Shown here: piece after piece, positions 6,173-64,000 of the stretch
Layout of the letters: every line of letters starts with the position of its first letter
Numbering within the stretch: position 1 is the stretch's first letter
NCBI GenBank assembly: GCA_033816765.1
Contig: CM066292.1
Location: 2,170,001-2,234,000 of the forward strand
DNA: 64,000 nucleotides
Direction: 5' to 3'
Origin: Nothopassalora personata
Lineage: Eukaryota > Ascomycota > Dothideomycetes > Mycosphaerellales > Mycosphaerellaceae
Notes under the pieces: generated by a model
Seen by the model: only the letters and a program-made list of their open reading frames with translations
What the model was told of the DNA's origin: nothing
The model's database searches: none
Translations under genes and position numbers: made by a program

Positions 6173-7019
6173 CGCAATCGTTGCAGCTTCGTGCTCTCAT
6201 AAGCGGTCGTGGGCGGTGTCCGGTTCTGAAAGGAAAATGCTACTACGAGCGCACATTCAAGAAGGTCTTCTTGAGAAAACACTTATATCCAGTCATGAGT
6301 TTCGGCAACCCTTAGAACATCCGCTACAAACTTCGTTGATCAAGCACGTAAAATTGACAGCTAGACAACGCCAGACCGAAACTTCTTACCTCGTAGCACT
6401 CGCACCTTCTTGCGCAGAAAGCTTCGCAAATTCGCGAGGCACAATATTCCCCAACCCATTGATAAGTGATGATGAAAGAGCTGAGTAGAGCTAATGAATA
6501 CGCCACGGCAACCGGACAAATAAGAAGCACAAGGACTAGGGGTCCGAGCGCTATATGGGTACGTGCTTTCGCTTAGTCTGGTTGCTACTTACTCGCATGT
6601 GCCAAAAAGTAGGCCTGAAGCTATGTAAATACGTGCAAGGGAAACATACAACAGTCTCCTAGCTCCCAACACAATTTCTCTCCCCTTCCTTCCAATTGAA
6701 ATCCAACCAAAACCTATCAATTCTAGGCTGCGGGCGGGTAGGTGAATCGATACTGCGGTTGTCTATAGCTGGTTCGGGCGGATACATAAGGAGCAAGATC
6801 AGGACGGAGTGGCGAAATCCCTAAGTGCCCTTAGTATAAGTGACGCTGCCAAGCAGGCCCGGTGGATCGCGACACGTTGCTGCGGCATTTGGGCACGGAA
6901 GTACTTGCATGTGACACGACCAAGCAGACCGGTGGGACGCGATAAGATGGCGTATCGAAAATTGATGTACAAATGTTACTGACATTCTCGTACGGCAAGA
7001 AGTTCCGCGAATGACTCCG
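6173..7019. other. Non-coding part of left arm
   Basis: About 850 bases with no frame that I can defend. Some short open frames occur on both strands, none with recognisable motifs. It is identical to 63154-64000 in the right arm. Confidence 0.4.
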
Positions 7020-7661
7020 CTATAGCTGCTTCCCCGAGCGAGCGAGCATAAAGTCCGGCCGAAATGGCGCCTCTTTAGACCCGATGGACGCCAAGAGACA
7101 TGTGTATAGCCTTGATCTTTCCCTATGCACCACTTCACTCCCCAACGCGACATGGCCCATGGTCTTGAGCCGCTGCTCCTTGATTATGGATCTGCTGAGC
7201 TGGAGGTTCTGGGTGCGCGGACGCACTTGAGTATTGCTTGGAGTCTCGCGGATTGGGTCTGACGCCAGTCGTGTAGACGGTTTTCTGGCAAGGTTCTGCT
7301 GTCGAAGCCAGTCTGCTCTTTCCGCATTGCTCGCCTCAGTCCAGTTTCTCTTGTACGCACGGCAATAGTGCTGTCGTGAGAATGTGCCGGTGCTGATAGC
7401 TGAGAATGTAGCAGAGCGCTGGGCACGCTCGTTTGGACCCATGGGCGATATCACATGACTTTGTGGTTCTGTGCTCTTAGAGGCCGAGTCTGGGTCTTGA
7501 CTGAGATGCTCGGTGATGGGATGGCCAAGACGTCGCTTGCCGTCTTTGTCCGACAGAGCTGCATCCTGTTTAAACCTCTGGGTGCTGAAATAAAAGTCAA
7601 ATTTCAGACCAGTCCTTCGGTAGAGAGTCACTCCTGACCCCGTGTGCCTTGCAATCGTCAA
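7020..7661 (-). CDS. Hypothetical protein (left-arm copy)
   Basis: Uninterrupted 213-codon frame. The product is basic and hydrophilic, with a stretch NWTEASNAERADWLRQQNLA that could form a helix; no signal peptide, membrane segment or known motif. It may be a lineage-specific gene or a chance frame; an overlapping 80-codon frame on the same strand weakens the case. The right-arm copy at 62512-63153 is identical, which reflects recent duplication and not conservation. Confidence 0.3.
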   Translation of the reverse strand: MTIARHTGSGVTLYRRTGLKFDFYFSTQRFKQDAALSDKDGKRRLGHPITEHLSQDPDSASKSTEPQSHVISPMGPNERAQRSATFSAISTGTFSRQHYCRAYKRNWTEASNAERADWLRQQNLARKPSTRLASDPIRETPSNTQVRPRTQNLQLSRSIIKEQRLKTMGHVALGSEVVHRERSRLYTCLLASIGSKEAPFRPDFMLARSGKQL

Positions 7662-8411
7662 GCATGAAGACGAGTCGGTCGCGCGCTACAAGTTCGCCGT
7701 CGGGATGCTTGTAAGGATAAAACAGAGCGAAAGCACAACTCGACAAAGAAGAACAAGAACTTGCCTCAACCCGCTACACGAACCCCGACCGCCGCGTTGA
7801 TTTCCACTGGACGGTTCGGGAAAAGAACAATTCTCCTTAGTTCTCTGATCTCCTCAATAGTAGTATTGCTGGTGCGGGACCTTTGAAGAAGCGCAATCAG
7901 CTCGATCTCAATGTTAATACTCACATTACGATGAAAAGGAAGAGGAGCGCGACCTGCGTCTTTCGATATCTTCTTGATGGGTACAGGGTAGATGAAGCAC
8001 AGTATTCTGCGCTCACTGGGCCGATGCAGCGGAGCCACTTTGGACGACCGGATTTTGACGATATTTTGAGGAGGCATTCCAGGATCTGGTCGATGGTGGG
8101 ACTGTGGAGAAGAAAGTGAGAGTTTTTTTAAAATGCATGGCAGATACCGCTAGCTAGTGGGAAGACTGCTAAAGTTCAAGAGTATTGCGGCAGACCCATC
8201 GTTGGCGAAATCCTTGCGGATGAATGCCACGAACTCACCGCGAAGGCAAGGGATATGGGTTTGCGGATTCGCTACGATTTCTTAATGGAGATGTTGGGTG
8301 AATGTGAATTCACGACAGCATGACACTCGATAGCGTTCAAAGCCAGGGATTGATAACAGTGATATGAGATACACCAGTACAGTACAGTACACTACCGCTC
8401 TGTCCTTAGCT
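7662..8411. other. Intergenic DNA downstream of P450 with weak coding-like traces
   Basis: No complete gene. On the plus strand, 8142-8325 contains an open stretch without a Met reading GRPIVGEILADECHELTAKA then RDMGLRIRYDFLMEML, which looks protein-like. It follows a short frame ending near 8117 and a GTGAG that could be a splice donor. I could not find a splice arrangement that joins them with a normal intron length, so this is left as a possible gene remnant. Confidence 0.3.
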
Positions 8412-10187
8412 CTATCGAGCGCGCTTCCTCAACCTCAATTTCAAGCTCTTCTCACTGCCCTCGGGAACATTATACACATCATTCATCTGCAGCGTCAAGA
8501 TACTGATGCTATCTCTCATCCTCGCATCGAGTCTCGACTCTATTTGCAATTGACTCTCGAGCTTGCCTTGTGCGCCAACAGGGAGCGCCACCGCCTCGAT
8601 CTTATGCTTCCGAAATAAGGACAGAAAGATCGAAACGAACTCGACCTGTGCCATTTTCTGTCCTGGGCATACACGTGGGCCGGCAGACCAGGGAATAAAT
8701 GATCCTTTAGGCGGGTTGAAGAGTTGTAGGCTGCCGTCATCAGTATTGTTAAGCCAGCGTGTGGGACGGAACAGATTCTCGTCATTTTGGCTGGGCTTTT
8801 CACCTTCTTTGAGGTTCAGGTTTCTGTAGACATCGGGATCAACGTGGAGGCCGCAGACACTTGGGTAGATTGTAGCGTTTGCCGGGATCCAAAATGTGCC
8901 GTGTGAGGTGGTAATGGTCTGAGGTGCCTTGGTCATTTTTGACAAGTGTATGACTGGCGTGTAGATTCGGAGCGTCTCGAGCATAACGGCAAGAATGCGT
9001 GTGGCCTCGGGGAAGATTGCGGTGTAGTCGAGGTCTGCGGTAGGGTCTGTGGGCATGATTTGGTCGATTTCTTCGAAAATCCATTGTTGCCATTGCGGAT
9101 ACCTTGCCAGAAGGACGAGGGCGTAAGATAAAGTGTTGGCAGTGGTATCAAAGCCAGCTGCCGTGAAGATGAAGAGATTGCCCACCCTCTCGTCGTCAGT
9201 GAGAGCTTTGGCGCCCTTTTCGCCCTCGGAGGCTTGGAGGAGCTGGCTCATGATGTTGCTCCTCGTCTGACCACCTGCATCTGCCGTGCGCTGCTTCTCC
9301 TGCTCCAACAAGTCCATGGTGTGGGTAGGGAACTCATCAATCGCGTAGCTCAGACTCTTCAATAACTTCTGCCCAGGGAGGAAACTCGGATAGTTGTACA
9401 GAAACCACTTTGGCAAAATAATCGGTCCAGCAACACACTCAATCAACACTTTCACAGCTTCCATATATGTCAGCCTGAAGCCTTCCTTCGGCTTCACACT
9501 GGCATTTTCCTCGTCACTCCACGGTACACTGGACCCCATCCCAGCTCCAGACAGAACATTAATCGTAATCTTCTTCATCATGTCAAACAATTTCGTCGTC
9601 TCCCCTTCCTCTCCGTCCCCAACCACCTCCCCAAGCAGTCCCTGGGTCTGCTCAACACTCTCCTTAAACACTGTGTTTGAAATTCTCTCATTAATGGTAC
9701 TCGCCACGACTTTCCGCTGCCGCGCCCACGCATCCCCTTCCGACGTCAGCACATTATGTCCAAATCTCGACATGAACAGAGTTGTAAACTCATGCGGGAC
9801 AAAATCCCTCGGCCGCCGGAGGATTTCTGTGACAACTTCCGGATCTCGGGTGGAGACTTCGTATTTCCCCATTGAGACCATGACCAGATTCTTAGAGTCT
9901 CCTTGAGGAGCGGCGTACTGTTTGTATGGTCGAAGTCCTTCGTGGAATTCGAAGCCGTAGATTGTCAGGGAGAGGCGGTTGTAGATACAGGTTGGGAGGT
10001 ATTTCTTCAAGATCGGCCGGAGCGGCACTGAGGTGGTCATCCAGATGAAGTGATTCTGGTCCATGGGGACGATGAACCAGGGCATTCCGGACTTTCGAGC
10101 ATTGTTGAGGTTGCGGATGAGGTTGTAGACGAAGGTCGAGGAGTATGCGATGATTAGAGCGCCGATGGCGGTGAGTACGGAAGGCAT
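8412..10187 (-). CDS. Cytochrome P450 monooxygenase (left-arm copy)
   Basis: Intronless 591-codon frame, mirror of 59986-61761 with no amino-acid difference. The complete set of P450 signatures is present: N-terminal membrane anchor, C-helix WARQR (154-158), I-helix AAGFDTT (343-349), ExxR (404-407), FRPTRW (473-478) and the heme loop with Cys507. In this arm it lies 561 bases downstream of the ABC transporter on the same strand. Fuller notes are given for the right-arm copy. Confidence 0.93.
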   Translation of the reverse strand: MPSVLTAIGALIIAYSSTFVYNLIRNLNNARKSGMPWFIVPMDQNHFIWMTTSVPLRPILKKYLPTCIYNRLSLTIYGFEFHEGLRPYKQYAAPQGDSKNLVMVSMGKYEVSTRDPEVVTEILRRPRDFVPHEFTTLFMSRFGHNVLTSEGDAWARQRKVVASTINERISNTVFKESVEQTQGLLGEVVGDGEEGETTKLFDMMKKITINVLSGAGMGSSVPWSDEENASVKPKEGFRLTYMEAVKVLIECVAGPIILPKWFLYNYPSFLPGQKLLKSLSYAIDEFPTHTMDLLEQEKQRTADAGGQTRSNIMSQLLQASEGEKGAKALTDDERVGNLFIFTAAGFDTTANTLSYALVLLARYPQWQQWIFEEIDQIMPTDPTADLDYTAIFPEATRILAVMLETLRIYTPVIHLSKMTKAPQTITTSHGTFWIPANATIYPSVCGLHVDPDVYRNLNLKEGEKPSQNDENLFRPTRWLNNTDDGSLQLFNPPKGSFIPWSAGPRVCPGQKMAQVEFVSIFLSLFRKHKIEAVALPVGAQGKLESQLQIESRLDARMRDSISILTLQMNDVYNVPEGSEKSLKLRLRKRAR

Positions 10188-10748
10188 CTTTGTGTTTATT
10201 GTGGTTTGATGAAGGAGGATGGCAGAGAAAGTGACGTTGGAGTACGGAGGCAGGCGCGGCTATGTGTGCATCAACGGCGTATTATATTGCCACCGCTTTT
10301 GATACCGTGTTGTACTCGATACCGTCCGCAATGTAAGCGCTGGCAGCGATGTGATCAAGTAAGACGCATGTGCGCGGACGCAGACCTTGCTACATAATAC
10401 TAGAGTTGCGAGTCTCTAGATGCTGAATACGAGGTACGAACCAACTCATCCACGTCGGGACATGAACCAATCATAACGTGCACCGGCCGATCAGGGTCCA
10501 TGTCACAACCACAGCAACCATCCAACTCGCACACTCCATGTTTGTTTCAACACATGGCGCTCACGTGGCAACACGTTATGCAGGGCTGCATCTCCAATTC
10601 TCTCTCTATGCTGTCGATTTGGTACATCTGTATCCATCCACAAAGTGTTCAGTAATGCCACCATCAGCCCGCCCACCTCTATCCCAAACACCCACGCTAC
10701 TATGCCAGCAAGCAATTACAGTTCAACACCTTTCACCATAACGTCCCT
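10188..10748. promoter_or_regulatory. P450 promoter region and ABC transporter 3' flank (left arm)
   Basis: 561 bases between the two minus-strand genes. Read on the minus strand, a TATA-like CAATATAATA lies about 95-105 bases before the P450 start (near 10280-10291). The other end must contain the ABC transporter 3' UTR and terminator. No other gene is seen. Confidence 0.5.
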
Positions 10749-13700
10749 CTACCGTCTATTGAAGTTCAGGTAGCGACTCCCAATGAATAGCAAGATCAAA
10801 TTGCTCCCAATGAACGCCGTGAGAATCCCAAAGTCCCTCCATCTGTGATTCCACGAAATGCCAAGCGGCTCGTAGAACTGATCACCAACACGGTAAGCAC
10901 AGTACGAGCAGTCCGAGGTCGCATTGTTGGCGATGTAGCCTGGTCCTCCCGCGGCGAAGAATGCGGACATGTACTCTCCACAAGTCTGGCCCGCGGGCGC
11001 GGTGAAGCGATTGAACTCAACGTCTGTGCAGATCACTGGTTTCTCGTGGAGCTCGTTCGCCACGAGACCGGCGATGAGGCGGGTGAAGCTGCGAGGTGTT
11101 AGCTGGAGTGATTGCAAGAGGCAACGAAGCTGAACTCACGGATCAAGCTGATACAACCACGCACGCCAAAAACCTGGAATCTGCGGCTTTGGAACCGTGA
11201 CACCACAGAAGAGGGCGAAGATGATGATCAAGAACGGGTTGAGCAACACAGCGATGAACGTGCTTGGGGTCAAGGCGGAAACCATCTGGCCGAGGGTAAC
11301 AGAGAACAGCTCAGTGATCAAGACCATCAAGAAGTTGTAACCAGCCCTGTTCGAAACGTGGCTGAAGCCTGGAATGTAGTAGAGCGGGAGGAAGAAGCCA
11401 ACAGCGCAGATGATGCTGTATGGCATCTCTGCCAACACCATGGACGCTGCGAAGGGGAACTGCTTGTAGGTTTTCGAGGCAGCTTCGCGGTAGTAGATCA
11501 GTCGCGAGAGATCGTACTTCGGCTCGACCTGGGCCAAGATGAGTGCCGGCAAGATGGTGACCTGGAAGATGATGAAGACTCGGTACTGTAGGGACGTCCT
11601 CGACTCGTCGAGGTTCAAGAACATGAGACCTGTCAGAAGTGCGATGATAACGTGATTGAACAGTCGGGTGAATCCATAGTTAGGTGATCGCCAAAAAGAC
11701 TTGTGCGTTCGGAGCTGAACGGTCTTGATCTGGTGCCAGAGTGGCGTTGCGAATTCCTTCTGTTCAACCGCGGGCTGCGAGCCAACCTCTTCGATGCGCT
11801 CCTGCTTGATGCGGACGATTTCCTGCTTGGTGGCTGCGAGCTCTTCTGAATCGCGCCAGATTTCGCCCCAGTCTTTGTCGCCGATGCGCGCTGCTTGACC
11901 GGCACCAATGGCGTCCAGCATCCACTCGGCTGGGTTGGCGTTTGGTGGACAGTGTGCGCCGTACTTGCGGAAGTAGTCGATCAGAACGCATGCATCTTTG
12001 CCAATGTCACCGAAGTAGACGGTTTCTCCACCACGCTGCAGCAGGAGCAGACGATCGAAGTTCTCGAACAGCGATGCGTTAGGTTGATGGATCGTGCAAA
12101 GAATAGCCTGACCTGCCCCAGCGAGCTTGCGCAAGAAACGAACAATGTTGAAAGCACTCTGTGAGTCAAGACCGGACGTCGGTTCGTCCAAGAAGAGCAG
12201 CAGTTCAGGCTTCGCAGCAAGTTCAACACCAATGGTGACTCGCTTCCTCTGTTCGACGGCAAGTCCAGCGTCTGGGTCTCCAATGACAGCGTCCGCAATA
12301 TCTTCCATTTCCAAGAGCGCGATGATCTCCTCGACATAGGCGTACTTCTCTGATTGCGCTGTCTCATATGGTTGACGAAGGTCAGCTGAAAAACGTAAAG
12401 CCTCCCGTACAGTCTGTGTGCCCTCGTGCACGTCAAGCTGTTCGGCATAACTTGTTCCGCGCTGGAAAGCAGTGCCAGGTGGCTTGCCATCGATAAGCTT
12501 GTCGCCGGTGATTACACCAATGTTCTTGCGGGAAGCAAGTACATCAAGAAGCGTAGTCTTACCAGCTCCAGATGCACCCATCAATGCAGTCAACTGGCCA
12601 GGCTTGACGTATCCAAAGACGTTCTTCAGCAATCGCAGTTGTCCTGAAGGTACCGGCACGTCGTAGCATAGCTCTTCCCAAGTAAGTACTGCCTTTGACT
12701 CGATCTTCATATCAGAGCCTTCGCTCGCTTCACCCTTCTCGCGTCGTGCTGCCTTCTTCGCCTTCAAAGCATCATTGAGCTGCTTGCGGTCCTTGTCTTC
12801 CTTCGCGAAGAATGTAAGAGTCTTGCCCCCGGCACCCCACTTGATGTATTCTCCGAGGAACATGTTAGCTGCCAGGAAAGCGGCGACCAGCACAACGATG
12901 ATGCCCCAGTTGCGCCACAGCTCGCTTGGTCTATACGAGAAAGATGTCTCCACGTAATCGGTACCCGAGACGAAGGACTGGCCTGGAGTGCTGCCAGCGA
13001 GCGTGCAAGATTGATGCGCGATATCGCCATAGCCTGGACCGGAAGGAACAAGGTAGGTACCATCACATTCGAGGTCAAGTCTGCTGAACTCGTTGACCAT
13101 CATAGCCGAGAATCCAAGACCCAGGGCATTGATGTAAAAGATCCAGCGGAGCCATACCTGCTGTGACTGATATTGAATCAAGTAACCAGAAGTCAAGACG
13201 AACAAAGTGATGATCGTTGCAGCGAACTTGATCGCCGAGTCGAAGTCCGGGCAAAGACAACCCACAGTCCGGAAGAACAACGTAATCCCGAGGTATCCAG
13301 TGATAATGATCAGATAGAACGTGAAGAACGCTCCAGCATCGTAGACAAGTCCACACATAAAGTAGACCATAATCGAAAAGACCAGAATCTGCACGGCCGA
13401 GAATGCCAGGTCGACCAGAATTTGCGCTATCCACAGCGCAGACGGTCGATGGAACGTGTACGCCCGATGCTTATTGACAATCGTCCTCCCCATCATGACC
13501 GTGCCAAGCTCACCAAAAGCCTGGAAGCAGTTGAACAGGAGAGCGATGAACAAGACACCACCACGGGTGAAAGCACCAGCGCTGGTTTTGGGTTGTTGCA
13601 GCCAGACGGTTCCGATAACAACAGCGATGACGATAGATGTGATCCAGGAGACGACGAGGGAGAAACGATCCTGCCACTTGAGGATGAATTGGCGCTTCAC

Positions 13701-15353
13701 CAGAGCCCACATTTGGAGGTAGAAGGGAATCGAGTAGACGGACTTTTTCGGCGCGTGGCGCTTGCCTTGGGCAACGGCGGTTTGGAAGTCTTCGAAGACG
13801 TGCTTCTCTTCGTCCATTACTTTCCGATATTCGGAGATTTCGTTTTGCAGGAAGGTGGCGTATTTGGACTTGTTGAAGGCATCGACGAGATCGTCGGCGG
13901 AGGATGGAGCGTTGGATGCGTCGCGGCCGTCCTTGTATTCTCGCTCGAACGGGTCGGTGCAGCCGGTGAGGTAGTCGGGGGTCGTTTGTCTAGGCTTCTC
14001 GCGGAAGCCGAGTCCTTCGAAGTACGCGCGAGCTTCGTGGGCAGGGCCAAAGAAGACTTGCCGACCCTCATCGATGACGAGGACTTTGTCGAATTGGGAG
14101 TAGATGTTCTCTGATGCTTGGTATAGCGAGACGAAGGTCGTTGTGTTGTAGATGTTGGTCATAACTCGTAATGACTTGGCATAGTCGAGAGCTGTTGATG
14201 CATCAAGTCCGCGGGTACTGTTGTCGTGCGAGCACACTGCAGCACCAGTAATCATCATCTCAGCGATAGAGACACGCTTCCTCTCGCCACCAGAAATACC
14301 ACGCACGAACGGGTTGCCGACAATGGTATTCTTGGTGTGCTCAATGTTGAACATGCGGAGGAGCATATCAATGACCTTGTCCTTGAATTGGTTGGTAGTG
14401 AGGCCTCCAGGTCGCTTTCCAGGGACCTTCGTCTCGAGCGCGAAGCCCAGAGTCTGTCCGACTGTCAAAGTTGGGTGATGCACATCATCCTCCATGCAGT
14501 AAACAGCCTCACCCCGATAACGCTTCTCAAACTCCTCGCTCGTGAATGGTCCATAGAGCACCTTGCCCTCAACGTTAGTGTATCCAAATCTCTGGTTGGC
14601 AACGACCTTCAGGAAAGTAGTACATCCACTCCCCGGTCGTCCCAACACAAGCACCATTTCGCCTGGCTTAACAACACCCTTGAAGTCCTGCAAGATGTTT
14701 ACCTCCTCCCCCTTCTTGCCAAACCCGAACAAGCCCATCGTAAACTTGATCGGAAAGCCAAAGAAGTCTGTAAACGCATCCGGGAACGTCTTGACGAAGA
14801 TCTTGGCACCTCCCATGCCCTTTACTGTGAGATTCTCCCATATGACTCCAATCTTCTTGCTCTTGATGCCGGACTCCTCTTCCAGCTGCTTGCTCGACCG
14901 TAGATACTCTTGCAGATCGAAGGCATCGTCCTCACTCGCCGCGGGGCTGGACGTAGCTTTCTCGAGGTCTTGTACAAGTTCATTGATTTGCCTCGCACTC
15001 TTCCTGCTCGTTCGCGACTGCTGTCGTGAAATGTGGCTCAATTCCCGCTGCAAATGCGACCATTCCCTACGCGCACCCTCGACGTTAACACCATTGGCAT
15101 GATGCTGCCTCTTTTCATCATCATCCCACGAAGGCCTCCTCGTCGAAGCAACATCGTCCTTCTCATTACTCGAGTTCGTGATGTAGCTCTCCCGCTGCTC
15201 ATGAGCCTCAGTCGCTGGGCCAGATTCCTGATCTCTGGCAGAGGGTTGCACACCCGAGCTTGGAGCCTCTGCATTTCCTGCTATTGTTGTCCCTTGTCCA
15301 CTGTGAAAGTGGCCGACATGTCCAAGGTTGAGTTCGTGCTCAACTTTCCCCAT
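10749..15353 (-). CDS. PDR-type ABC transporter (ABC-G), left-arm copy
   Basis: Two exons on the minus strand, 15353-11140 and 11088-10749, split by a 51-nt intron. The product is 1517 residues, full length for a fungal pleiotropic drug resistance pump. It differs from the right-arm copy only at residue 1376, Ile (ATC) here and Val (GTC) there, within a hydrophobic transmembrane stretch (FLIIIFALFCG), a conservative change. Domains are described under the right-arm copy. The start at 15353 is the first Met of the long frame. Confidence 0.95.
11089..11139 (-). other. Intron of ABC transporter (left arm)
   Basis: On the minus strand the exon ends ..CTTGATCC and the intron begins GTGAGT and ends CTCGCAG, with GCTAAC as branch site. 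Splicing joins LDP to FTRLIAG, the normal continuation in PDR transporters; without it the frame stops at once (TGA inside GTGAGT). Confidence 0.9.
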
Positions 15354-16443
15354 CTCACCGTCTGTCCTGGGAGGGGCCTGTGGGGCCGGAAGCCGATTGC
15401 GCTAAAACTCCGTCGCCCTGGGAGAGAGACCGTTTTTTGACCCGATGCGCGCCAATCAGCGGGACTCTGCAAACGGATAGACCCTAGAGGATGAAGGTAT
15501 GTAAGAACTAAGAACCAGGTCGCTGGTATCTGGAATCCAAACCCGTCACAGCAACGAAAAGCGTACAATACAGAGGGACAGCAGGAATGTCGCGAGGCCA
15601 CAAGGACGAATACTTATATTATCCAGACGCCCAGGAGACGAGGCACGAACCTGATTGTTTATCTCCACTCACTAGTCTCGCCTGCTCCGTCTGTATGTGC
15701 CCGTCGATGCGAGTCGGTATCCACACCTGATGCCTGTGGCGTAAAACGAACTGCTGCATTGGTCGTGCGGTAACATTCTGCCGCATTTCTTGGACAAGAT
15801 GCCGATCGCCCAGCCGGAACCTGGAAAGATCGAGGAGCCGAGCAGCTGCCGTAACCGTAGGACAATGCTTTTGCTTGCATGCCTTTGTTCGTGTGGAAGG
15901 ACTTTAGGATCGTACTGTATGAACTACAGTACAGCGTCTTCCAGCGTTGCATTCACAAGTGTCTTTAGCTGCCGCTTTCAGCACAACGATTCGCTGTGAT
16001 CCTGGATCTGGCTGGGATTGTCGGTCCGCTGCCGCTGCGCTACGCTACACAATCTTCATGTGGATATGCATGATTCTTCCCCCTGCTCAGTGCTAGGACG
16101 ATTTGGGGCAGCGGTCTCGAAGGCATGGAACAGTCGCAAGTACTCAACACTTTCTTGTGCGATATGGCTCATGGTGATTGATTCGAAACAGCTGCGAGGT
16201 CAATCATCTAAAGCCACTCAGACGATGGCTGCAGCTGTCACGTCTGTCAGGTAATACTTGTGACCAGCGCTCGCATGGTTTGCGGTTTTGGCAACGCCTC
16301 TTCGATGGTAATACACAGCTATCGACACTACCATATCACGACTCGTGGCTTGTGTCGCCGTTCCTGTTCCTAAGCCCTCCCCTGCCGTACGCCATATGCC
16401 GTACGCGTCGCTCATTGTAGTACAGAAAAATTGCACAAAACAA
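15354..16443. promoter_or_regulatory. Upstream region of ABC transporter to inner arm edge (left)
   Basis: 1.1 kb with no convincing gene; open frames of 69-135 codons occur on both strands without motifs. On the minus strand an AT-rich ATAATATAAGTA (about 15612-15623) lies about 260 bases before the start and is the best TATA candidate. Near the inner edge (about 16386-16408) is the palindromic run CGTACGCCATATGCCGTACG. Confidence 0.45.
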
Positions 16444-17998: not shown

Positions 17999-18246
17999 TG
18001 TTAAGATGTAGCATCTTAAGGGGAGCTAACAGTTAGGTTATGATCTAATAGCCTAAGGCATCCACGATGACTCAGCTTGTCGGAAGACACCTTCTCTCCC
18101 CTTTAGATTAGATAGACATCTAATACAATTAACGCATTTAGTTCCTAATATATTGCTGCATGCCCTGTAGCTATTAGCCAGTTAAAGATTAATCTCTTAC
18201 TCTACTCCGCTACTAACTACGTATCCTATAAGGTCTTAACTTAACA
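17999..18246 (+). repeat. 5' LTR of copia A
   Basis: 248 bp beginning TGTTAAGATGTAGCATC and ending CTTAACTTAACA. It differs from the 3' LTR only by scattered transitions, mostly at CpA or TpG sites. It contains the imperfect palindrome GATGTAGCATC near its start. Confidence 0.9.
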
Positions 18247-41075: not shown

Positions 41076-41080
41076 CTAGG

Positions 41081-50959: not shown

Positions 50960-51077
50960 ACTGGTCAATCGTACTAGTGATATGCTACATCGAAGGCGTT
51001 ATGCGTGGCAACATTGTCGTGAGCCAACCCGCGAGTCGCGTCGACGGAAGTTGTGCTCCGATCAAGAACTCCATGTT

Positions 51078-53405: not shown

Positions 53406-53729
53406 TGAATCACCAATGATTTTCATACGGTATGCGATACTGCATGGCCGGCCATGTGCTTGCACGCTCGATATGAGACACTGCTTGAATGCACAGCATA
53501 CACAGGCAAGGACTATGTCTGTGCATTCAATACACCGCTGTGCAGATTGTGCTGTGCATTGTTTCGTACATTACAAAGCAGGCACAACGACGTGATGCAA
53601 GGTCCTTATCATTGGTGCCCACCGCGGCCGCATACCCGAGCGTTTCGAGCATTGGATTGGCTCAGGACTTGAGTCCGTTATCCACAATCAGTAATCAGAT
53701 TGTGGCTCAAGTGGTTGAGATTACGGCTA
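53406..53729. other. 3' flank of the Opi1-like gene up to right arm
   Basis: 324 bases with no gene; contains the hairpin listed separately and several TGTGCATT-type direct repeats (53519-53530, 53551-53560). Confidence 0.5.
53485..53530. repeat. Hairpin-forming inverted repeat downstream of the Opi1-like gene
   Basis: TTGAATGCACAG (53485-53496) pairs perfectly with CTGTGCATTCAA (53519-53530). Four more pairs (CATA with TATG) follow after a one-base bulge, leaving a loop of about 13. It starts 80 bases after the stop, so it may lie in the 3' UTR; role unknown. Confidence 0.6.
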
Positions 53730-54819
53730 TTGTTTTGTGCAATTTTTCTGTACTACAATGAGCGACGCGTACGGCATATGGCGTACGGCAGGGGAGGGCT
53801 TAGGAACAGGAACGGCGACACAAGCCACGAGTCGTGATATGGTAGTGTCGATAGCTGTGTATTACCATCGAAGAGGCGTTGCCAAAACCGCAAACCATGC
53901 GAGCGCTGGTCACAAGTATTACCTGACAGACGTGACAGCTGCAGCCATCGTCTGAGTGGCTTTAGATGATTGACCTCGCAGCTGTTTCGAATCAATCACC
54001 ATGAGCCATATCGCACAAGAAAGTGTTGAGTACTTGCGACTGTTCCATGCCTTCGAGACCGCTGCCCCAAATCGTCCTAGCACTGAGCAGGGGGAAGAAT
54101 CATGCATATCCACATGAAGATTGTGTAGCGTAGCGCAGCGGCAGCGGACCGACAATCCCAGCCAGATCCAGGATCACAGCGAATCGTTGTGCTGAAAGCG
54201 GCAGCTAAAGACACTTGTGAATGCAACGCTGGAAGACGCTGTACTGTAGTTCATACAGTACGATCCTAAAGTCCTTCCACACGAACAAAGGCATGCAAGC
54301 AAAAGCATTGTCCTACGGTTACGGCAGCTGCTCGGCTCCTCGATCTTTCCAGGTTCCGGCTGGGCGATCGGCATCTTGTCCAAGAAATGCGGCAGAATGT
54401 TACCGCACGACCAATGCAGCAGTTCGTTTTACGCCACAGGCATCAGGTGTGGATACCGACTCGCATCGACGGGCACATACAGACGGAGCAGGCGAGACTA
54501 GTGAGTGGAGATAAACAATCAGGTTCGTGCCTCGTCTCCTGGGCGTCTGGATAATATAAGTATTCGTCCTTGTGGCCTCGCGACATTCCTGCTGTCCCTC
54601 TGTATTGTACGCTTTTCGTTGCTGTGACGGGTTTGGATTCCAGATACCAGCGACCTGGTTCTTAGTTCTTACATACCTTCATCCTCTAGGGTCTATCCGT
54701 TTGCAGAGTCCCGCTGATTGGCGCGCATCGGGTCAAAAAACGGTCTCTCTCCCAGGGCGACGGAGTTTTAGCGCAATCGGCTTCCGGCCCCACAGGCCCC
54801 TCCCAGGACAGACGGTGAG
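53730..54819. promoter_or_regulatory. Upstream region of ABC transporter (right arm)
   Basis: 1.1 kb with no convincing gene. ATAATATAAGTA (54550-54561) is the best TATA candidate. Since the duplication stops at 53730, about 1.1 kb of common upstream DNA accompanies both transporter copies. Beyond that the two promoters face different neighbours: heterochromatin-like repeats on the left, the Opi1-like gene on the right. Confidence 0.45.
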
Positions 54820-57800
54820 ATGGGGAAAGTTGAGCACGAACTCAACCTTGGACATGTCGGCCACTTTCACAGTGGACAAGGGACAACAATAGCAGGAAAT
54901 GCAGAGGCTCCAAGCTCGGGTGTGCAACCCTCTGCCAGAGATCAGGAATCTGGCCCAGCGACTGAGGCTCATGAGCAGCGGGAGAGCTACATCACGAACT
55001 CGAGTAATGAGAAGGACGATGTTGCTTCGACGAGGAGGCCTTCGTGGGATGATGATGAAAAGAGGCAGCATCATGCCAATGGTGTTAACGTCGAGGGTGC
55101 GCGTAGGGAATGGTCGCATTTGCAGCGGGAATTGAGCCACATTTCACGACAGCAGTCGCGAACGAGCAGGAAGAGTGCGAGGCAAATCAATGAACTTGTA
55201 CAAGACCTCGAGAAAGCTACGTCCAGCCCCGCGGCGAGTGAGGACGATGCCTTCGATCTGCAAGAGTATCTACGGTCGAGCAAGCAGCTGGAAGAGGAGT
55301 CCGGCATCAAGAGCAAGAAGATTGGAGTCATATGGGAGAATCTCACAGTAAAGGGCATGGGAGGTGCCAAGATCTTCGTCAAGACGTTCCCGGATGCGTT
55401 TACAGACTTCTTTGGCTTTCCGATCAAGTTTACGATGGGCTTGTTCGGGTTTGGCAAGAAGGGGGAGGAGGTAAACATCTTGCAGGACTTCAAGGGTGTT
55501 GTTAAGCCAGGCGAAATGGTGCTTGTGTTGGGACGACCGGGGAGTGGATGTACTACTTTCCTGAAGGTCGTTGCCAACCAGAGATTTGGATACACTAACG
55601 TTGAGGGCAAGGTGCTCTATGGACCATTCACGAGCGAGGAGTTTGAGAAGCGTTATCGGGGTGAGGCTGTTTACTGCATGGAGGATGATGTGCATCACCC
55701 AACTTTGACAGTCGGACAGACTCTGGGCTTCGCGCTCGAGACGAAGGTCCCTGGAAAGCGACCTGGAGGCCTCACTACCAACCAATTCAAGGACAAGGTC
55801 ATTGATATGCTCCTCCGCATGTTCAACATTGAGCACACCAAGAATACCATTGTCGGCAACCCGTTCGTGCGTGGTATTTCTGGTGGCGAGAGGAAGCGTG
55901 TCTCTATCGCTGAGATGATGATTACTGGTGCTGCAGTGTGCTCGCACGACAACAGTACCCGCGGACTTGATGCATCAACAGCTCTCGACTATGCCAAGTC
56001 ATTACGAGTTATGACCAACATCTACAACACAACGACCTTCGTCTCGCTATACCAAGCATCAGAGAACATCTACTCCCAATTCGACAAAGTCCTCGTCATC
56101 GATGAGGGTCGGCAAGTCTTCTTTGGCCCTGCCCACGAAGCTCGCGCGTACTTCGAAGGACTCGGCTTCCGCGAGAAGCCTAGACAAACGACCCCCGACT
56201 ACCTCACCGGCTGCACCGACCCGTTCGAGCGAGAATACAAGGACGGCCGCGACGCATCCAACGCTCCATCCTCCGCCGACGATCTCGTCGATGCCTTCAA
56301 CAAGTCCAAATACGCCACCTTCCTGCAAAACGAAATCTCCGAATATCGGAAAGTAATGGACGAAGAGAAGCACGTCTTCGAAGACTTCCAAACCGCCGTT
56401 GCCCAAGGCAAGCGCCACGCGCCGAAAAAGTCCGTCTACTCGATTCCCTTCTACCTCCAAATGTGGGCTCTGGTGAAGCGCCAATTCATCCTCAAGTGGC
56501 AGGATCGTTTCTCCCTCGTCGTCTCCTGGATCACATCTATCGTCATCGCTGTTGTTATCGGAACCGTCTGGCTGCAACAACCCAAAACCAGCGCTGGTGC
56601 TTTCACCCGTGGTGGTGTCTTGTTCATCGCTCTCCTGTTCAACTGCTTCCAGGCTTTTGGTGAGCTTGGCACGGTCATGATGGGGAGGACGATTGTCAAT
56701 AAGCATCGGGCGTACACGTTCCATCGACCGTCTGCGCTGTGGATAGCGCAAATTCTGGTCGACCTGGCATTCTCGGCCGTGCAGATTCTGGTCTTTTCGA
56801 TTATGGTCTACTTTATGTGTGGACTTGTCTACGATGCTGGAGCGTTCTTCACGTTCTATCTGATCATTATCACTGGATACCTCGGGATTACGTTGTTCTT
56901 CCGGACTGTGGGTTGTCTTTGCCCGGACTTCGACTCGGCGATCAAGTTCGCTGCAACGATCATCACTTTGTTCGTCTTGACTTCTGGTTACTTGATTCAA
57001 TATCAGTCACAGCAGGTATGGCTCCGCTGGATCTTTTACATCAATGCCCTGGGTCTTGGATTCTCGGCTATGATGGTCAACGAGTTCAGCAGACTTGACC
57101 TCGAATGTGATGGTACCTACCTTGTTCCTTCCGGTCCAGGCTATGGCGATATCGCGCATCAATCTTGCACGCTCGCTGGCAGCACTCCAGGCCAGTCCTT
57201 CGTCTCGGGTACCGATTACGTGGAGACATCTTTCTCGTATAGACCAAGCGAGCTGTGGCGCAACTGGGGCATCATCGTTGTGCTGGTCGCCGCTTTCCTG
57301 GCAGCTAACATGTTCCTCGGAGAATACATCAAGTGGGGTGCCGGGGGCAAGACTCTTACATTCTTCGCGAAGGAAGACAAGGACCGCAAGCAGCTCAATG
57401 ATGCTTTGAAGGCGAAGAAGGCAGCACGACGCGAGAAGGGTGAAGCGAGCGAAGGCTCTGATATGAAGATCGAGTCAAAGGCAGTACTTACTTGGGAAGA
57501 GCTATGCTACGACGTGCCGGTACCTTCAGGACAACTGCGATTGCTGAAGAACGTCTTTGGATACGTCAAGCCTGGCCAGTTGACTGCATTGATGGGTGCA
57601 TCTGGAGCTGGTAAGACTACGCTTCTTGATGTACTTGCTTCCCGCAAGAACATTGGTGTAATCACCGGCGACAAGCTTATCGATGGCAAGCCACCTGGCA
57701 CTGCTTTCCAGCGCGGAACAAGTTATGCCGAACAGCTTGACGTGCACGAGGGCACACAGACTGTACGGGAGGCTTTACGTTTTTCAGCTGACCTTCGTCA

Positions 57801-59424
57801 ACCATATGAGACAGCGCAATCAGAGAAGTACGCCTATGTCGAGGAGATCATCGCGCTCTTGGAAATGGAAGATATTGCGGACGCTGTCATTGGAGACCCA
57901 GACGCTGGACTTGCCGTCGAACAGAGGAAGCGAGTCACCATTGGTGTTGAACTTGCTGCGAAGCCTGAACTGCTGCTCTTCTTGGACGAACCGACGTCCG
58001 GTCTTGACTCACAGAGTGCTTTCAACATTGTTCGTTTCTTGCGCAAGCTCGCTGGGGCAGGTCAGGCTATTCTTTGCACGATCCATCAACCTAACGCATC
58101 GCTGTTCGAGAACTTCGATCGTCTGCTCCTGCTGCAGCGTGGTGGAGAAACCGTCTACTTCGGTGACATTGGCAAAGATGCATGCGTTCTGATCGACTAC
58201 TTCCGCAAGTACGGCGCACACTGTCCACCAAACGCCAACCCAGCCGAGTGGATGCTGGACGCCATTGGTGCCGGTCAAGCAGCGCGCATCGGCGACAAAG
58301 ACTGGGGCGAAATCTGGCGCGATTCAGAAGAGCTCGCAGCCACCAAGCAGGAAATCGTCCGCATCAAGCAGGAGCGCATCGAAGAGGTTGGCTCGCAGCC
58401 CGCGGTTGAACAGAAGGAATTCGCAACGCCACTCTGGCACCAGATCAAGACCGTTCAGCTCCGAACGCACAAGTCTTTTTGGCGATCACCTAACTATGGA
58501 TTCACCCGACTGTTCAATCACGTTATCATCGCACTTCTGACAGGTCTCATGTTCTTGAACCTCGACGAGTCGAGGACGTCCCTACAGTACCGAGTCTTCA
58601 TCATCTTCCAGGTCACCATCTTGCCGGCACTCATCTTGGCCCAGGTCGAGCCGAAGTACGATCTCTCGCGACTGATCTACTACCGCGAAGCTGCCTCGAA
58701 AACCTACAAGCAGTTCCCCTTCGCAGCGTCCATGGTGTTGGCAGAGATGCCATACAGCATCATCTGCGCTGTTGGCTTCTTCCTCCCGCTCTACTACATT
58801 CCAGGCTTCAGCCACGTTTCGAACAGGGCTGGTTACAACTTCTTGATGGTCTTGATCACTGAGCTGTTCTCTGTTACCCTCGGCCAGATGGTTTCCGCCT
58901 TGACCCCAAGCACGTTCATCGCTGTGTTGCTCAACCCGTTCTTGGTCATCATCTTCGCCCTCTTCTGTGGTGTCACGGTTCCAAAGCCGCAGATTCCAGG
59001 TTTTTGGCGTGCGTGGTTGTATCAGCTTGATCCGTGAGTTCAGCTTCGTTGCCTCTTGCAATCACTCCAGCTAACACCTCGCAGCTTCACCCGCCTCATC
59101 GCCGGTCTCGTGGCGAACGAGCTCCACGAGAAACCAGTGATCTGCACAGACGTTGAGTTCAATCGCTTCACCGCGCCCGCGGGCCAGACTTGTGGAGAGT
59201 ACATGTCCGCATTCTTCGCCGCGGGAGGACCAGGCTACATCGCCAACAATGCGACCTCGGACTGCTCGTACTGTGCTTACCGTGTTGGTGATCAGTTCTA
59301 CGAGCCGCTTGGCATTTCGTGGAATCACAGATGGAGGGACTTTGGGATTCTCACGGCGTTCATTGGGAGCAATTTGATCTTGCTATTCATTGGGAGTCGC
59401 TACCTGAACTTCAATAGACGGTAG
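54820..59424 (+). CDS. PDR-type ABC transporter (ABC-G), right-arm copy
   Basis: Exons 54820-59033 and 59085-59424 encode 1517 residues with the fungal PDR order NBD-TMD-NBD-TMD. A Ser/Arg-rich cytosolic lead precedes NBD1 with the degenerate Walker A typical of the family (GRPGSGCTTFLK, about 238), signature ISGGERKRVSIAE (about 354) and DNSTRGLDAST. Six hydrophobic segments follow around 570-850 (e.g. WITSIVIAVVIGTVWLQ). NBD2 has canonical Walker A GASGAGKTTLLD (about 925), VEQRKRVTIGVELAAKP (about 1030) and LLLFLDEPTSGLDSQ. TMD2 and a Cys-containing extracellular loop (CSYCAY) end with the second exon. Such plasma-membrane pumps export azoles, plant metabolites and other lipophilic toxins. 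All motifs are intact. Residue 1376 is Val here and Ile in the left-arm copy. Confidence 0.95.
59034..59084 (+). other. Intron of ABC transporter (right arm)
   Basis: 51 nt, GTGAGT...GCAG, branch site GCTAAC about 10 bases before the acceptor. It joins LD-P to FTRLIAGLV. Confidence 0.9.
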
Positions 59425-59985
59425 AGGGACGTTATGGTGAAAGGTGTTGAACTGTAATTGCTTGCTGGCATAGTAGCGTGGGTGTTTGGGATAGAGGTGG
59501 GCGGGCTGATGGTGGCATTACTGAACACTTTGTGGATGGATACAGATGTACCAAATCGACAGCATAGAGAGAGAATTGGAGATGCAGCCCTGCATAACGT
59601 GTTGCCACGTGAGCGCCATGTGTTGAAACAAACATGGAGTGTGCGAGTTGGATGGTTGCTGTGGTTGTGACATGGACCCTGATCGGCCGGTGCACGTTAT
59701 GATTGGTTCATGTCCCGACGTGGATGAGTTGGTTCGTACCTCGTATTCAGCATCTAGAGACTCGCAACTCTAGTATTATGTAGCAAGGTCTGCGTCCGCG
59801 CACATGCGTCTTACTTGATCACATCGCTGCCAGCGCTTACATTGCGGACGGTATCGAGTACAACACGGTATCAAAAGCGGTGGCAATATAATACGCCGTT
59901 GATGCACACATAGCCGCGCCTGCCTCCGTACTCCAACGTCACTTTCTCTGCCATCCTCCTTCATCAAACCACAATAAACACAAAG
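59425..59985. promoter_or_regulatory. ABC transporter 3' flank and P450 promoter (right arm)
   Basis: 561 bases; CAATATAATA at about 59883-59892 is the TATA candidate roughly 95 bases before the P450 start. No further gene is supported. Confidence 0.5.
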
Positions 59986-61761
59986 ATGCCTTCCGTACTC
60001 ACCGCCATCGGCGCTCTAATCATCGCATACTCCTCGACCTTCGTCTACAACCTCATCCGCAACCTCAACAATGCTCGAAAGTCCGGAATGCCCTGGTTCA
60101 TCGTCCCCATGGACCAGAATCACTTCATCTGGATGACCACCTCAGTGCCGCTCCGGCCGATCTTGAAGAAATACCTCCCAACCTGTATCTACAACCGCCT
60201 CTCCCTGACAATCTACGGCTTCGAATTCCACGAAGGACTTCGACCATACAAACAGTACGCCGCTCCTCAAGGAGACTCTAAGAATCTGGTCATGGTCTCA
60301 ATGGGGAAATACGAAGTCTCCACCCGAGATCCGGAAGTTGTCACAGAAATCCTCCGGCGGCCGAGGGATTTTGTCCCGCATGAGTTTACAACTCTGTTCA
60401 TGTCGAGATTTGGACATAATGTGCTGACGTCGGAAGGGGATGCGTGGGCGCGGCAGCGGAAAGTCGTGGCGAGTACCATTAATGAGAGAATTTCAAACAC
60501 AGTGTTTAAGGAGAGTGTTGAGCAGACCCAGGGACTGCTTGGGGAGGTGGTTGGGGACGGAGAGGAAGGGGAGACGACGAAATTGTTTGACATGATGAAG
60601 AAGATTACGATTAATGTTCTGTCTGGAGCTGGGATGGGGTCCAGTGTACCGTGGAGTGACGAGGAAAATGCCAGTGTGAAGCCGAAGGAAGGCTTCAGGC
60701 TGACATATATGGAAGCTGTGAAAGTGTTGATTGAGTGTGTTGCTGGACCGATTATTTTGCCAAAGTGGTTTCTGTACAACTATCCGAGTTTCCTCCCTGG
60801 GCAGAAGTTATTGAAGAGTCTGAGCTACGCGATTGATGAGTTCCCTACCCACACCATGGACTTGTTGGAGCAGGAGAAGCAGCGCACGGCAGATGCAGGT
60901 GGTCAGACGAGGAGCAACATCATGAGCCAGCTCCTCCAAGCCTCCGAGGGCGAAAAGGGCGCCAAAGCTCTCACTGACGACGAGAGGGTGGGCAATCTCT
61001 TCATCTTCACGGCAGCTGGCTTTGATACCACTGCCAACACTTTATCTTACGCCCTCGTCCTTCTGGCAAGGTATCCGCAATGGCAACAATGGATTTTCGA
61101 AGAAATCGACCAAATCATGCCCACAGACCCTACCGCAGACCTCGACTACACCGCAATCTTCCCCGAGGCCACACGCATTCTTGCCGTTATGCTCGAGACG
61201 CTCCGAATCTACACGCCAGTCATACACTTGTCAAAAATGACCAAGGCACCTCAGACCATTACCACCTCACACGGCACATTTTGGATCCCGGCAAACGCTA
61301 CAATCTACCCAAGTGTCTGCGGCCTCCACGTTGATCCCGATGTCTACAGAAACCTGAACCTCAAAGAAGGTGAAAAGCCCAGCCAAAATGACGAGAATCT
61401 GTTCCGTCCCACACGCTGGCTTAACAATACTGATGACGGCAGCCTACAACTCTTCAACCCGCCTAAAGGATCATTTATTCCCTGGTCTGCCGGCCCACGT
61501 GTATGCCCAGGACAGAAAATGGCACAGGTCGAGTTCGTTTCGATCTTTCTGTCCTTATTTCGGAAGCATAAGATCGAGGCGGTGGCGCTCCCTGTTGGCG
61601 CACAAGGCAAGCTCGAGAGTCAATTGCAAATAGAGTCGAGACTCGATGCGAGGATGAGAGATAGCATCAGTATCTTGACGCTGCAGATGAATGATGTGTA
61701 TAATGTTCCCGAGGGCAGTGAGAAGAGCTTGAAATTGAGGTTGAGGAAGCGCGCTCGATAG
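59986..61761 (+). CDS. Cytochrome P450 monooxygenase (right-arm copy)
   Basis: Intronless 591-residue microsomal P450. The N-terminus (VLTAIGALIIAYSSTFVYNL) is a membrane anchor without a cleavage site. Conserved elements are C-helix WARQR (154-158), I-helix oxygen-binding AAGFDTT (343-349), K-helix ETLR (404-407), FRPTRW (473-478) and heme loop FIPWSAGPRVCPGQ with ligand Cys507. The C-terminus is longer than usual and basic (SLKLRLRKRAR). The enzyme would oxidise a lipophilic substrate with electrons from NADPH-P450 reductase; substrate unknown. The fungal CYP family cannot be named without comparison. It lies 561 bases downstream of the ABC transporter on the same strand and is duplicated with it, so a joint detoxification role is possible but unproven. 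It is identical in sequence to the left-arm copy. Confidence 0.94.
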   Translation: MPSVLTAIGALIIAYSSTFVYNLIRNLNNARKSGMPWFIVPMDQNHFIWMTTSVPLRPILKKYLPTCIYNRLSLTIYGFEFHEGLRPYKQYAAPQGDSKNLVMVSMGKYEVSTRDPEVVTEILRRPRDFVPHEFTTLFMSRFGHNVLTSEGDAWARQRKVVASTINERISNTVFKESVEQTQGLLGEVVGDGEEGETTKLFDMMKKITINVLSGAGMGSSVPWSDEENASVKPKEGFRLTYMEAVKVLIECVAGPIILPKWFLYNYPSFLPGQKLLKSLSYAIDEFPTHTMDLLEQEKQRTADAGGQTRSNIMSQLLQASEGEKGAKALTDDERVGNLFIFTAAGFDTTANTLSYALVLLARYPQWQQWIFEEIDQIMPTDPTADLDYTAIFPEATRILAVMLETLRIYTPVIHLSKMTKAPQTITTSHGTFWIPANATIYPSVCGLHVDPDVYRNLNLKEGEKPSQNDENLFRPTRWLNNTDDGSLQLFNPPKGSFIPWSAGPRVCPGQKMAQVEFVSIFLSLFRKHKIEAVALPVGAQGKLESQLQIESRLDARMRDSISILTLQMNDVYNVPEGSEKSLKLRLRKRAR

Positions 61762-62511
61762 AGCTAAGGACAGAGCGGTAGTGTACTGTACTGTACTGGT
61801 GTATCTCATATCACTGTTATCAATCCCTGGCTTTGAACGCTATCGAGTGTCATGCTGTCGTGAATTCACATTCACCCAACATCTCCATTAAGAAATCGTA
61901 GCGAATCCGCAAACCCATATCCCTTGCCTTCGCGGTGAGTTCGTGGCATTCATCCGCAAGGATTTCGCCAACGATGGGTCTGCCGCAATACTCTTGAACT
62001 TTAGCAGTCTTCCCACTAGCTAGCGGTATCTGCCATGCATTTTAAAAAAACTCTCACTTTCTTCTCCACAGTCCCACCATCGACCAGATCCTGGAATGCC
62101 TCCTCAAAATATCGTCAAAATCCGGTCGTCCAAAGTGGCTCCGCTGCATCGGCCCAGTGAGCGCAGAATACTGTGCTTCATCTACCCTGTACCCATCAAG
62201 AAGATATCGAAAGACGCAGGTCGCGCTCCTCTTCCTTTTCATCGTAATGTGAGTATTAACATTGAGATCGAGCTGATTGCGCTTCTTCAAAGGTCCCGCA
62301 CCAGCAATACTACTATTGAGGAGATCAGAGAACTAAGGAGAATTGTTCTTTTCCCGAACCGTCCAGTGGAAATCAACGCGGCGGTCGGGGTTCGTGTAGC
62401 GGGTTGAGGCAAGTTCTTGTTCTTCTTTGTCGAGTTGTGCTTTCGCTCTGTTTTATCCTTACAAGCATCCCGACGGCGAACTTGTAGCGCGCGACCGACT
62501 CGTCTTCATGC
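61762..62511. other. Intergenic DNA downstream of P450 (right arm)
   Basis: Mirror of 7662-8411. Contains CTGTACTGTACTGTACTGG-like repeats just after the P450 stop (61784-61799) and the same weak coding traces on the minus strand; no complete gene. Confidence 0.4.
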
Positions 62512-63153
62512 TTGACGATTGCAAGGCACACGGGGTCAGGAGTGACTCTCTACCGAAGGACTGGTCTGAAATTTGACTTTTATTTCAGCACCCAGAGGTT
62601 TAAACAGGATGCAGCTCTGTCGGACAAAGACGGCAAGCGACGTCTTGGCCATCCCATCACCGAGCATCTCAGTCAAGACCCAGACTCGGCCTCTAAGAGC
62701 ACAGAACCACAAAGTCATGTGATATCGCCCATGGGTCCAAACGAGCGTGCCCAGCGCTCTGCTACATTCTCAGCTATCAGCACCGGCACATTCTCACGAC
62801 AGCACTATTGCCGTGCGTACAAGAGAAACTGGACTGAGGCGAGCAATGCGGAAAGAGCAGACTGGCTTCGACAGCAGAACCTTGCCAGAAAACCGTCTAC
62901 ACGACTGGCGTCAGACCCAATCCGCGAGACTCCAAGCAATACTCAAGTGCGTCCGCGCACCCAGAACCTCCAGCTCAGCAGATCCATAATCAAGGAGCAG
63001 CGGCTCAAGACCATGGGCCATGTCGCGTTGGGGAGTGAAGTGGTGCATAGGGAAAGATCAAGGCTATACACATGTCTCTTGGCGTCCATCGGGTCTAAAG
63101 AGGCGCCATTTCGGCCGGACTTTATGCTCGCTCGCTCGGGGAAGCAGCTATAG
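62512..63153 (+). CDS. Hypothetical protein (right-arm copy)
   Basis: Uninterrupted 213-codon frame identical to the left-arm copy. Basic, no recognisable domain. Its existence as a gene rests on frame length alone. Confidence 0.3.
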   Translation: MTIARHTGSGVTLYRRTGLKFDFYFSTQRFKQDAALSDKDGKRRLGHPITEHLSQDPDSASKSTEPQSHVISPMGPNERAQRSATFSAISTGTFSRQHYCRAYKRNWTEASNAERADWLRQQNLARKPSTRLASDPIRETPSNTQVRPRTQNLQLSRSIIKEQRLKTMGHVALGSEVVHRERSRLYTCLLASIGSKEAPFRPDFMLARSGKQL

Positions 63154-64000
63154 CGGAGTCATTCGCGGAACTTCTTGCCGTACGAGAATGTCAGTAACAT
63201 TTGTACATCAATTTTCGATACGCCATCTTATCGCGTCCCACCGGTCTGCTTGGTCGTGTCACATGCAAGTACTTCCGTGCCCAAATGCCGCAGCAACGTG
63301 TCGCGATCCACCGGGCCTGCTTGGCAGCGTCACTTATACTAAGGGCACTTAGGGATTTCGCCACTCCGTCCTGATCTTGCTCCTTATGTATCCGCCCGAA
63401 CCAGCTATAGACAACCGCAGTATCGATTCACCTACCCGCCCGCAGCCTAGAATTGATAGGTTTTGGTTGGATTTCAATTGGAAGGAAGGGGAGAGAAATT
63501 GTGTTGGGAGCTAGGAGACTGTTGTATGTTTCCCTTGCACGTATTTACATAGCTTCAGGCCTACTTTTTGGCACATGCGAGTAAGTAGCAACCAGACTAA
63601 GCGAAAGCACGTACCCATATAGCGCTCGGACCCCTAGTCCTTGTGCTTCTTATTTGTCCGGTTGCCGTGGCGTATTCATTAGCTCTACTCAGCTCTTTCA
63701 TCATCACTTATCAATGGGTTGGGGAATATTGTGCCTCGCGAATTTGCGAAGCTTTCTGCGCAAGAAGGTGCGAGTGCTACGAGGTAAGAAGTTTCGGTCT
63801 GGCGTTGTCTAGCTGTCAATTTTACGTGCTTGATCAACGAAGTTTGTAGCGGATGTTCTAAGGGTTGCCGAAACTCATGACTGGATATAAGTGTTTTCTC
63901 AAGAAGACCTTCTTGAATGTGCGCTCGTAGTAGCATTTTCCTTTCAGAACCGGACACCGCCCACGACCGCTTATGAGAGCACGAAGCTGCAACGATTGCG
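63154..64000. other. Non-coding outer part of right arm, runs off window
   Basis: Mirror of 6173-7019; no supported gene. If the duplication continues past 64000, the next feature would be a second copy of the MFS pseudogene. Confidence 0.4.

Follow-up and report, generated by a model that had tools for sequence, protein, structure and literature searches.

The 64,000-nucleotide window analysed here (Nothopassalora personata contig CM066292.1, positions 2,170,001 to 2,234,000; G000:C6:2170001-2234000) contains the inner parts of two long, nearly identical arms lying in opposite orientation around a spacer, and this structure is very probably a real, recent, two-copy inverted duplication. In a fuller reading of this segmental duplication, which we consider likely, the 31.2-kb segment existed first as the right arm, the native copy, and the repair of a chromosome break in transposon-rich DNA recently added the left arm as a second, inverted copy. 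Window coordinates are used throughout, and positions that are negative or above 64000 lie outside the window. The genome comprises 54.5 Mb in 40 contigs, and the arm limits were obtained from a self-comparison with 40 kb of DNA added on the left and 60 kb on the right.

1..16449, forward strand: in-window part of the left arm, which starts outside at -14749; probably the added copy
16450..53723, no strand: spacer, 37.3 kb
53724..64000, reverse strand: in-window part of the right arm, which ends outside at 84849; probably the native copy
11228: the single mismatch inside the 10,271-bp range described below, T on the left arm and C at 58945 on the right arm (left-arm strand), a CpC site giving Ile/Val in the ABC transporter open reading frame (ORF)

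The first-pass annotation described 10.3-kb arms around a 37.3-kb spacer with one difference and no indel, and this pairing was reproduced, as 6173-16443 aligned with the reverse complement of 53730-64000 over 10,271 bases with 1 mismatch and 0 indels. Its inner edges were right to within a few bases (16449/53724), and its outer edge at 6173 only mirrors the window edge. The real structure is larger than the window, as had been anticipated; the similarity continues to -14749 and 84849, giving arms of about 31.2 kb each (left -14749..16449, right 53724..84849) with an identity of 99.80% (30,931 of 30,992 ungapped columns). Each arm is made up of a gene block of about 21.8 kb (about -5394 to 16443) and an outer transposon part of about 9 kb, which consists of old transposons mutated by repeat-induced point mutation (RIP). 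Beyond the 10,271-bp range the arms are less alike, with 9 more gene-block substitutions, and of the 61 substitutions between the arms, the gene block has 10 in all, the outer transposon part 50 and the edge of a tandem repeat 1. Two indels also separate the arms, namely a length difference of 128 bp in this repeat and a 201-bp insertion on the left, which is a 196-bp solo long terminal repeat (LTR) with a 5-bp target-site copy TACTG and is absent from the right arm. The tandem repeat has an 8-bp unit and lies where the gene block meets the transposon part (-5567..-5394 and 75566-75868), the right copy being the longer.

The similarity of the arms cannot have arisen by chance because of their length, and two long, near-identical, reverse-oriented copies on one chromosome are what is understood by an inverted segmental duplication. 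Moreover, three gene-block segments (1,001, 2,001 and 477 bp) were each found in exactly two copies in a whole-genome search, and the transposon part of the arm is repeated across the genome. Together with the identity over 30,992 columns, these copy numbers support the earlier suggestion of a recent inverted duplication. The expected ABC transporter of the pleiotropic drug resistance (PDR) type and cytochrome P450 are likewise found in each arm, as ORFs that are open in both copies.

11136..15353, reverse strand: PDR/CDR-type ABC transporter ORF, left copy, 1405 aa, probably with one more exon at 10749-11135
54820..59037, forward strand: PDR/CDR-type ABC transporter ORF, right copy, 1405 aa
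8412..10187, reverse strand: cytochrome P450 ORF, left copy, 591 aa
59986..61761, forward strand: cytochrome P450 ORF, right copy, 591 aa

The four junctions of the arms with their surroundings are all different from each other, and the two inner ones lie next to the following features.

16443..16449, forward strand: left inner junction, arm joined inside transposon B with 2-5 bp of microhomology
16444..33952, forward strand: RIPped transposon B, left end broken, split by two nested elements into 16444-17993, 23615-25817 and 31432-33952
53719..53724, no strand: right inner junction, where the arm continues into single-copy DNA toward the Opi1 gene
51852..53405, forward strand: Opi1-domain protein ORF, adjoining the right arm

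At the left inner joint, the native arm reads AATAGCCG and the joint itself AAAAGCCGCATAG, and copies of B carry AAGTCG or AGGTCG ahead of B sequence identical to that at the joint. The search with transposon B gave 362 candidates, of which 40 were scored and 39 were other copies. A natural end of B at 16448 was considered, given that the other scored matches all start at query 195-202, and was rejected since related sequence extends upstream in all 11 of the other B copies inspected (L014-L024); a natural end of transposon A at -15027 was rejected likewise. The left inner edge is therefore not an element boundary, and its joint looks as in break repair. At the right outer edge, transposon A is interrupted by an LTR of about 183 bp (solo) of the retrotransposon family E, with CTCTT and TATAA as its flanks, a mismatch that recombination between the LTRs of two separate E insertions would produce. 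A solo LTR with mismatched flanks suggests that the right outer edge is probably secondary and, therefore, that the original duplication may have been longer than the present arms. At the left outer edge, transposon A breaks off at -15027, where the end of a B-type element adjoins it.

The right arm is probably the native copy because an Opi1-adjacent arrangement is suggested by the locus tags of two relatives, in which the P450 and Opi1 genes are 4 tags apart (Zasmidium cellare, PRZ48_007657 and PRZ48_007661) and 9 tags apart (Meristemomyces frigidus, LTR85_005866 and LTR85_005875). As the right arm keeps this P450-Opi1 neighbourhood and the left arm meets a broken transposon, the left arm is probably the added copy. 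Contig sizes were also compared by eye for species present in both match listings of 120 entries each, where longest contigs equal in bp were taken as the same contig. Among the matches listed, the two proteins were on contigs of equal size in 6 of 11 such species (Dothistroma septosporum, Z. cellare, M. frigidus, Septoria linicola, Saxophila tyrrhenica and Baudoinia panamericana), and in Fulvia fulva the outermost arm gene and Opi1 both had a longest contig of 5,146,409 bp.

The differences between the arms carry the mark of RIP, which is recognised by a bias of C:G to T:A transitions toward CpA and was found in both parts of the arms. All 10 gene-block differences are transitions and 9 of them are at CpA/TpG (background 28.2%, p=8.4e-5), with the T on the left arm at 6 of these sites and on the right arm at 3. 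The transposon part has 46 transitions and 4 transversions, and 20 of the 46 transitions are at CpA (background 7.6%, p=3.3e-11). Nine of the gene-block changes are clustered in one patch, which is listed here together with the dehydrogenase and MFS transporter frames.

121..5875, no strand: patch with 9 of the 10 gene-block differences, all 9 being CpA/TpG transitions; clustering p=6.7e-5
3103..4128, forward strand: short-chain dehydrogenase (SDR) ORF, left arm; the right-arm copy lies beyond the window
4210..5906, reverse strand: likely major facilitator superfamily (MFS) transporter in several ORF pieces, two of which match MFS_1, both below the Pfam cut-off

No stop codon was created by these differences in the frames tested. 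Divergence confined to synonymous sites, as a sign of selection, was not borne out, since coding changes include Gly/Ser, Ile/Val and Leu/Ser. Of the three differences in the SDR gene, two are synonymous and one is Gly/Ser; that in the ABC transporter is Ile/Val; in the first MFS piece, 5688 and 5859 are synonymous and 5875 is Leu/Ser, possibly upstream of the start codon. Sites 121 and 469 are outside the tested frames, and 4180 is only inside a probably spurious one. RIP thresholds for Cladosporium fulvum (C. fulvum, syn. Fulvia fulva) are given in the cited part of PMC9453070 as a product index of at least 1.1 and a substrate index of at most 0.75. None of the ten 2-kb bins from -3999 to 16000 passed them (product 0.48-0.81, substrate 1.15-1.42), and the transposon-filled 2-kb bins around the arms had a product index of about 1.7-3.0 and a substrate index of 0.13-0.61, with a few mixed bins intermediate. 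The arms have probably been touched only lightly by RIP, with mutation only just begun.

RIP seems possible in this genome, as open C5-methyltransferase frames could serve it. The four genome matches to C5-methyltransferase represent three genes with open frames, one of which has a BAH domain and is DIM-2-like; the second we take to be RID-like from its motif, and the third is presumably DNMT5-like. Two separate matches to the MAT alpha-box were found on different contigs (G000:C12:636845-637207 and C9:304785-304910). Rare sex has been proposed for C. fulvum in the cited part of PMC9453070, and the young, unRIPped family E would fit a recent history with little sex.

Under the favoured reading, a broken end inside transposon B would have switched by microhomology onto the native block, and copying would have proceeded outward in reverse orientation and on into the block's transposon flank; the end would then have been rejoined in transposon DNA (break-induced or template-switch replication). 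The right outer end was probably shortened afterwards, when two young E retrotransposons recombined. Several observations weigh against this reading. That the right arm is native depends on the locus-tag numbers of genes assumed to be orthologous; in Z. cellare, the outermost arm gene (PRZ48_007837) lies 176 tags from Opi1; and, among the matches listed, P450 and Opi1 are on contigs of different size in 5 of the 11 species (Vermiconidia calcicola, Cryoendolithus antarcticus, Elasticomyces elasticus, Teratosphaeria nubilosa and Oleoguttula sp. CCFEE 5521), splits in which assembly breaks or strain differences may be involved. The left outer edge does not separate the candidate repair routes. 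Furthermore, when 33 sites of transposon A were polarised with outgroup A copies (a single copy at 11 of the 33 sites), 18 were left-derived, 6 right-derived and 9 ambiguous, and among the left-derived sites are several T-to-C or A-to-G changes; these are not accounted for by RIP and speak against RIP as the only cause of the differences in the transposon part. The patch -13847..-13272 in transposon A has 17 transitions, 11 of them at CpA; plain RIP is doubtful for it, as outgroup copies give mixed polarity, and conversion from another copy of A is possible.

The main rival is an inversion of the 37-kb spacer by two staggered breaks, in which fill-in leaves oppositely oriented copies at each end; the native junctions would then be the outer one on the left and the inner one on the right. 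Such an inversion would yield the same anatomy with one end-joined inner edge, and inverted duplications and staggered breaks are reportedly named together in papers on inversion breakpoints of Drosophila (PMC7584159, PMC5080602); these, however, are animals without RIP, and the mechanism is not proven for the present locus. An identical 7.2-kb duplicated segment is also found at both breaks of a 654-kb inversion in C. fulvum Race 0WU, according to the cited section of PMC10823647, and by analogy this case shows inversion and duplication going together in a relative. Nevertheless, the right outer edge is a solo LTR, so that the junction predicted there is gone or hidden. Arms of 31 kb are, in addition, long for a stagger, and we regard this inversion as possible but rather doubtful. 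The duplication might instead be older, with repeated conversion, and flips of the spacer, keeping the gene blocks alike as the transposon parts diverge. Outside the dense patch in transposon A, substitutions at neither CpA nor CpG number 1 in 21,837 in the gene block versus 9 in 8,403 in the transposon part, that is, they are 23-fold rarer in the former (p=7e-5), and all 4 transversions are in the transposon part (p=0.007). This gradient may reflect either arm conversion cleaning the gene block or faster mutation of RIPped heterochromatin, which would give the same pattern; because raised transition and transversion diversity is reported for RIPped regions of C. fulvum in the cited part of PMC10823647, the faster mutation suffices on present evidence. 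The left-only solo LTR and the near-identity of family E also fit youth, and an older, converted duplication is thus considered unlikely.

An assembly artefact, be it a repeat that was collapsed or wrongly joined or the inclusion of a second haplotype, would draw on the near-identical stretches of 5.2-5.5 kb between arm differences, but it fits poorly with the four different junctions and with the 61 substitutions, the solo LTR and the repeat-length difference that separate the arms. The 2-5 bp of homology at the left inner junction would not be a product of overlap assembly, and a swap of flanks across the arms would yield the same inverted repeat with the spacer flipped. For these reasons, namely the differing junctions, the short homology and the outcome of a flank swap, a misassembly that invented the structure is very improbable. 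The first-pass annotation had also raised a palindrome-type amplification (breakage-fusion-bridge or origin-dependent inverted-repeat amplification, ODIRA), here of an efflux/P450 locus. The presence of a PDR-type ABC and a P450 ORF in each arm would suit it, but such amplification is recognised by head-to-head arms over a short spacer, usually in more than two copies. The tested segments have two copies only, and the arms are not head to head, since in place of a short loop there is a 37-kb spacer whose end by the right arm is single-copy DNA. This explanation hardly comes into consideration.

The duplication adds a new and large case to a known kind, and literature searches limited to open-licence PMC papers brought up no account of this locus. 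Its closest parallels are in C. fulvum, which is also the source of the best Opi1 match among the matches listed (86%, next to 85% for D. septosporum); a metagenome contig among them matched at 98% over 69% of the length. In Race 0WU, as here, an identical multi-gene segment is present at both ends of a rearranged piece, although the segment is 7.2 kb and the piece 654 kb there, compared with 31 kb and a 37-kb spacer here; the orientation of the copies is not stated in the cited section of PMC10823647. In Race 5, a 26.6-kb segmental duplication with Ecp11-1 is described in the cited part of PMC9453070, and it is likewise long (99.2% identity) and located in repeat-rich DNA, in a genome with heavy RIP. 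Its copies, however, are described as tandemly arranged and carry an effector gene, and an older third copy was destroyed by RIP-like mutations.

Several effects of the duplication are proposed. It would double the dose of the arm genes, and the arms would be a substrate for spacer inversion and for arm-to-arm conversion; flipping of the spacer is plausible, and gene conversion between the arms is possible, the low divergence of the gene part being no more than a hint of it. Extrusion of hairpins, which had been named as a further consequence, would be implausible across a 37-kb spacer. The duplication would also be a RIP target, so far lightly hit. According to the usual view, RIP leaves many ascomycete genomes with few long duplications, and the present one is linked, with open transporter, P450 and dehydrogenase frames amid heavily RIPped transposons and with few, readable RIP-type hits. 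A possible but less probable reading is that it represents a natural RIP experiment at its start, with only nine CpA transitions in 21.8 kb, all of them in one 5.8-kb patch and distributed between both arms, and with the attached transposon parts mutating on; RIP would then be patchy, stopping at or being erased from gene-bearing DNA, so that gene duplications survive long enough for selection. The duplication itself shows a way in which the dose of efflux and detoxification genes could change and stay changed for some time, and the rate of RIP, gene conversion and flipping of the spacer could be measured directly at this locus.

As for the remaining gene content, the best solved relatives of the ABC transporter are CDR1/PDR-type multidrug exporters, and the best protein match of the P450 among the matches listed is from D. 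septosporum (83%). By the P450 and Opi1 matches, the genome belongs close to Fulvia and Dothistroma (Mycosphaerellaceae). Outside the window, the left gene block contains one unassigned protein and one methyltransferase-domain protein. An HD-domain ORF is also present in this block, whose matches under the Pfam cut-offs are to a SAM-domain, DUF5722 and two MFS_1. Rfam and tRNA scans of the window gave no matches. The spacer contains one further enzyme gene and the two elements nested in transposon B.

49889..50959, forward strand: old yellow enzyme type FMN oxidoreductase ORF
17993..23614, forward strand: nested LTR retrotransposon C, copy 1, with a 5-bp target-site duplication AAGAT
25816..31436, reverse strand: nested LTR retrotransposon C, copy 2, in opposite orientation, 97.0% identical to copy 1, with a 5-bp target-site duplication ATTTC

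A second palindrome at 17993-31436 was considered and rejected, as the two C copies are separate nested insertions with their own target-site duplications. Family E is an LTR retrotransposon of about 7.3 kb with near-identical, unRIPped copies on many contigs (e.g., G000:C2:3868811-3876111). The 40 scored matches of its LTR (of 212 candidates) are all 99-100% identical, with 14 pairs among them spaced 6.9-7.1 kb apart, and its internal DNA is not RIPped and 99.6-99.9% alike in 5 copies; it is apparently a recent burst among heavily RIPped transposons. A Starship origin of the arms was rejected, as no captain gene is near them; genome-wide, the captain domain DUF3435 had 4 matches, each interrupted by internal stops, at 1.14 and 1.49 Mb of contig C6 and none in the 2.13-2.29 Mb analysed. 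These decayed, captain-like remnants are at G000:C6:1138898-1139752 and 1491206-1491712. The spacer also has a retrotransposon at 42501-46338 whose two 153-bp LTRs are identical. Its open frame of 1115 aa has domains for RNase H and integrase, but in it no match to gag or the reverse transcriptase core was found; it is probably a young, internally deleted element. Finally, a DNA transposon at 37578-39453 has terminal inverted repeats of 72-75 bp; its open frame of 523 aa contains DDE_1 and Tc5 DNA-binding domains, and the bins of the element have intermediate RIP indices inside strongly RIPped DNA.

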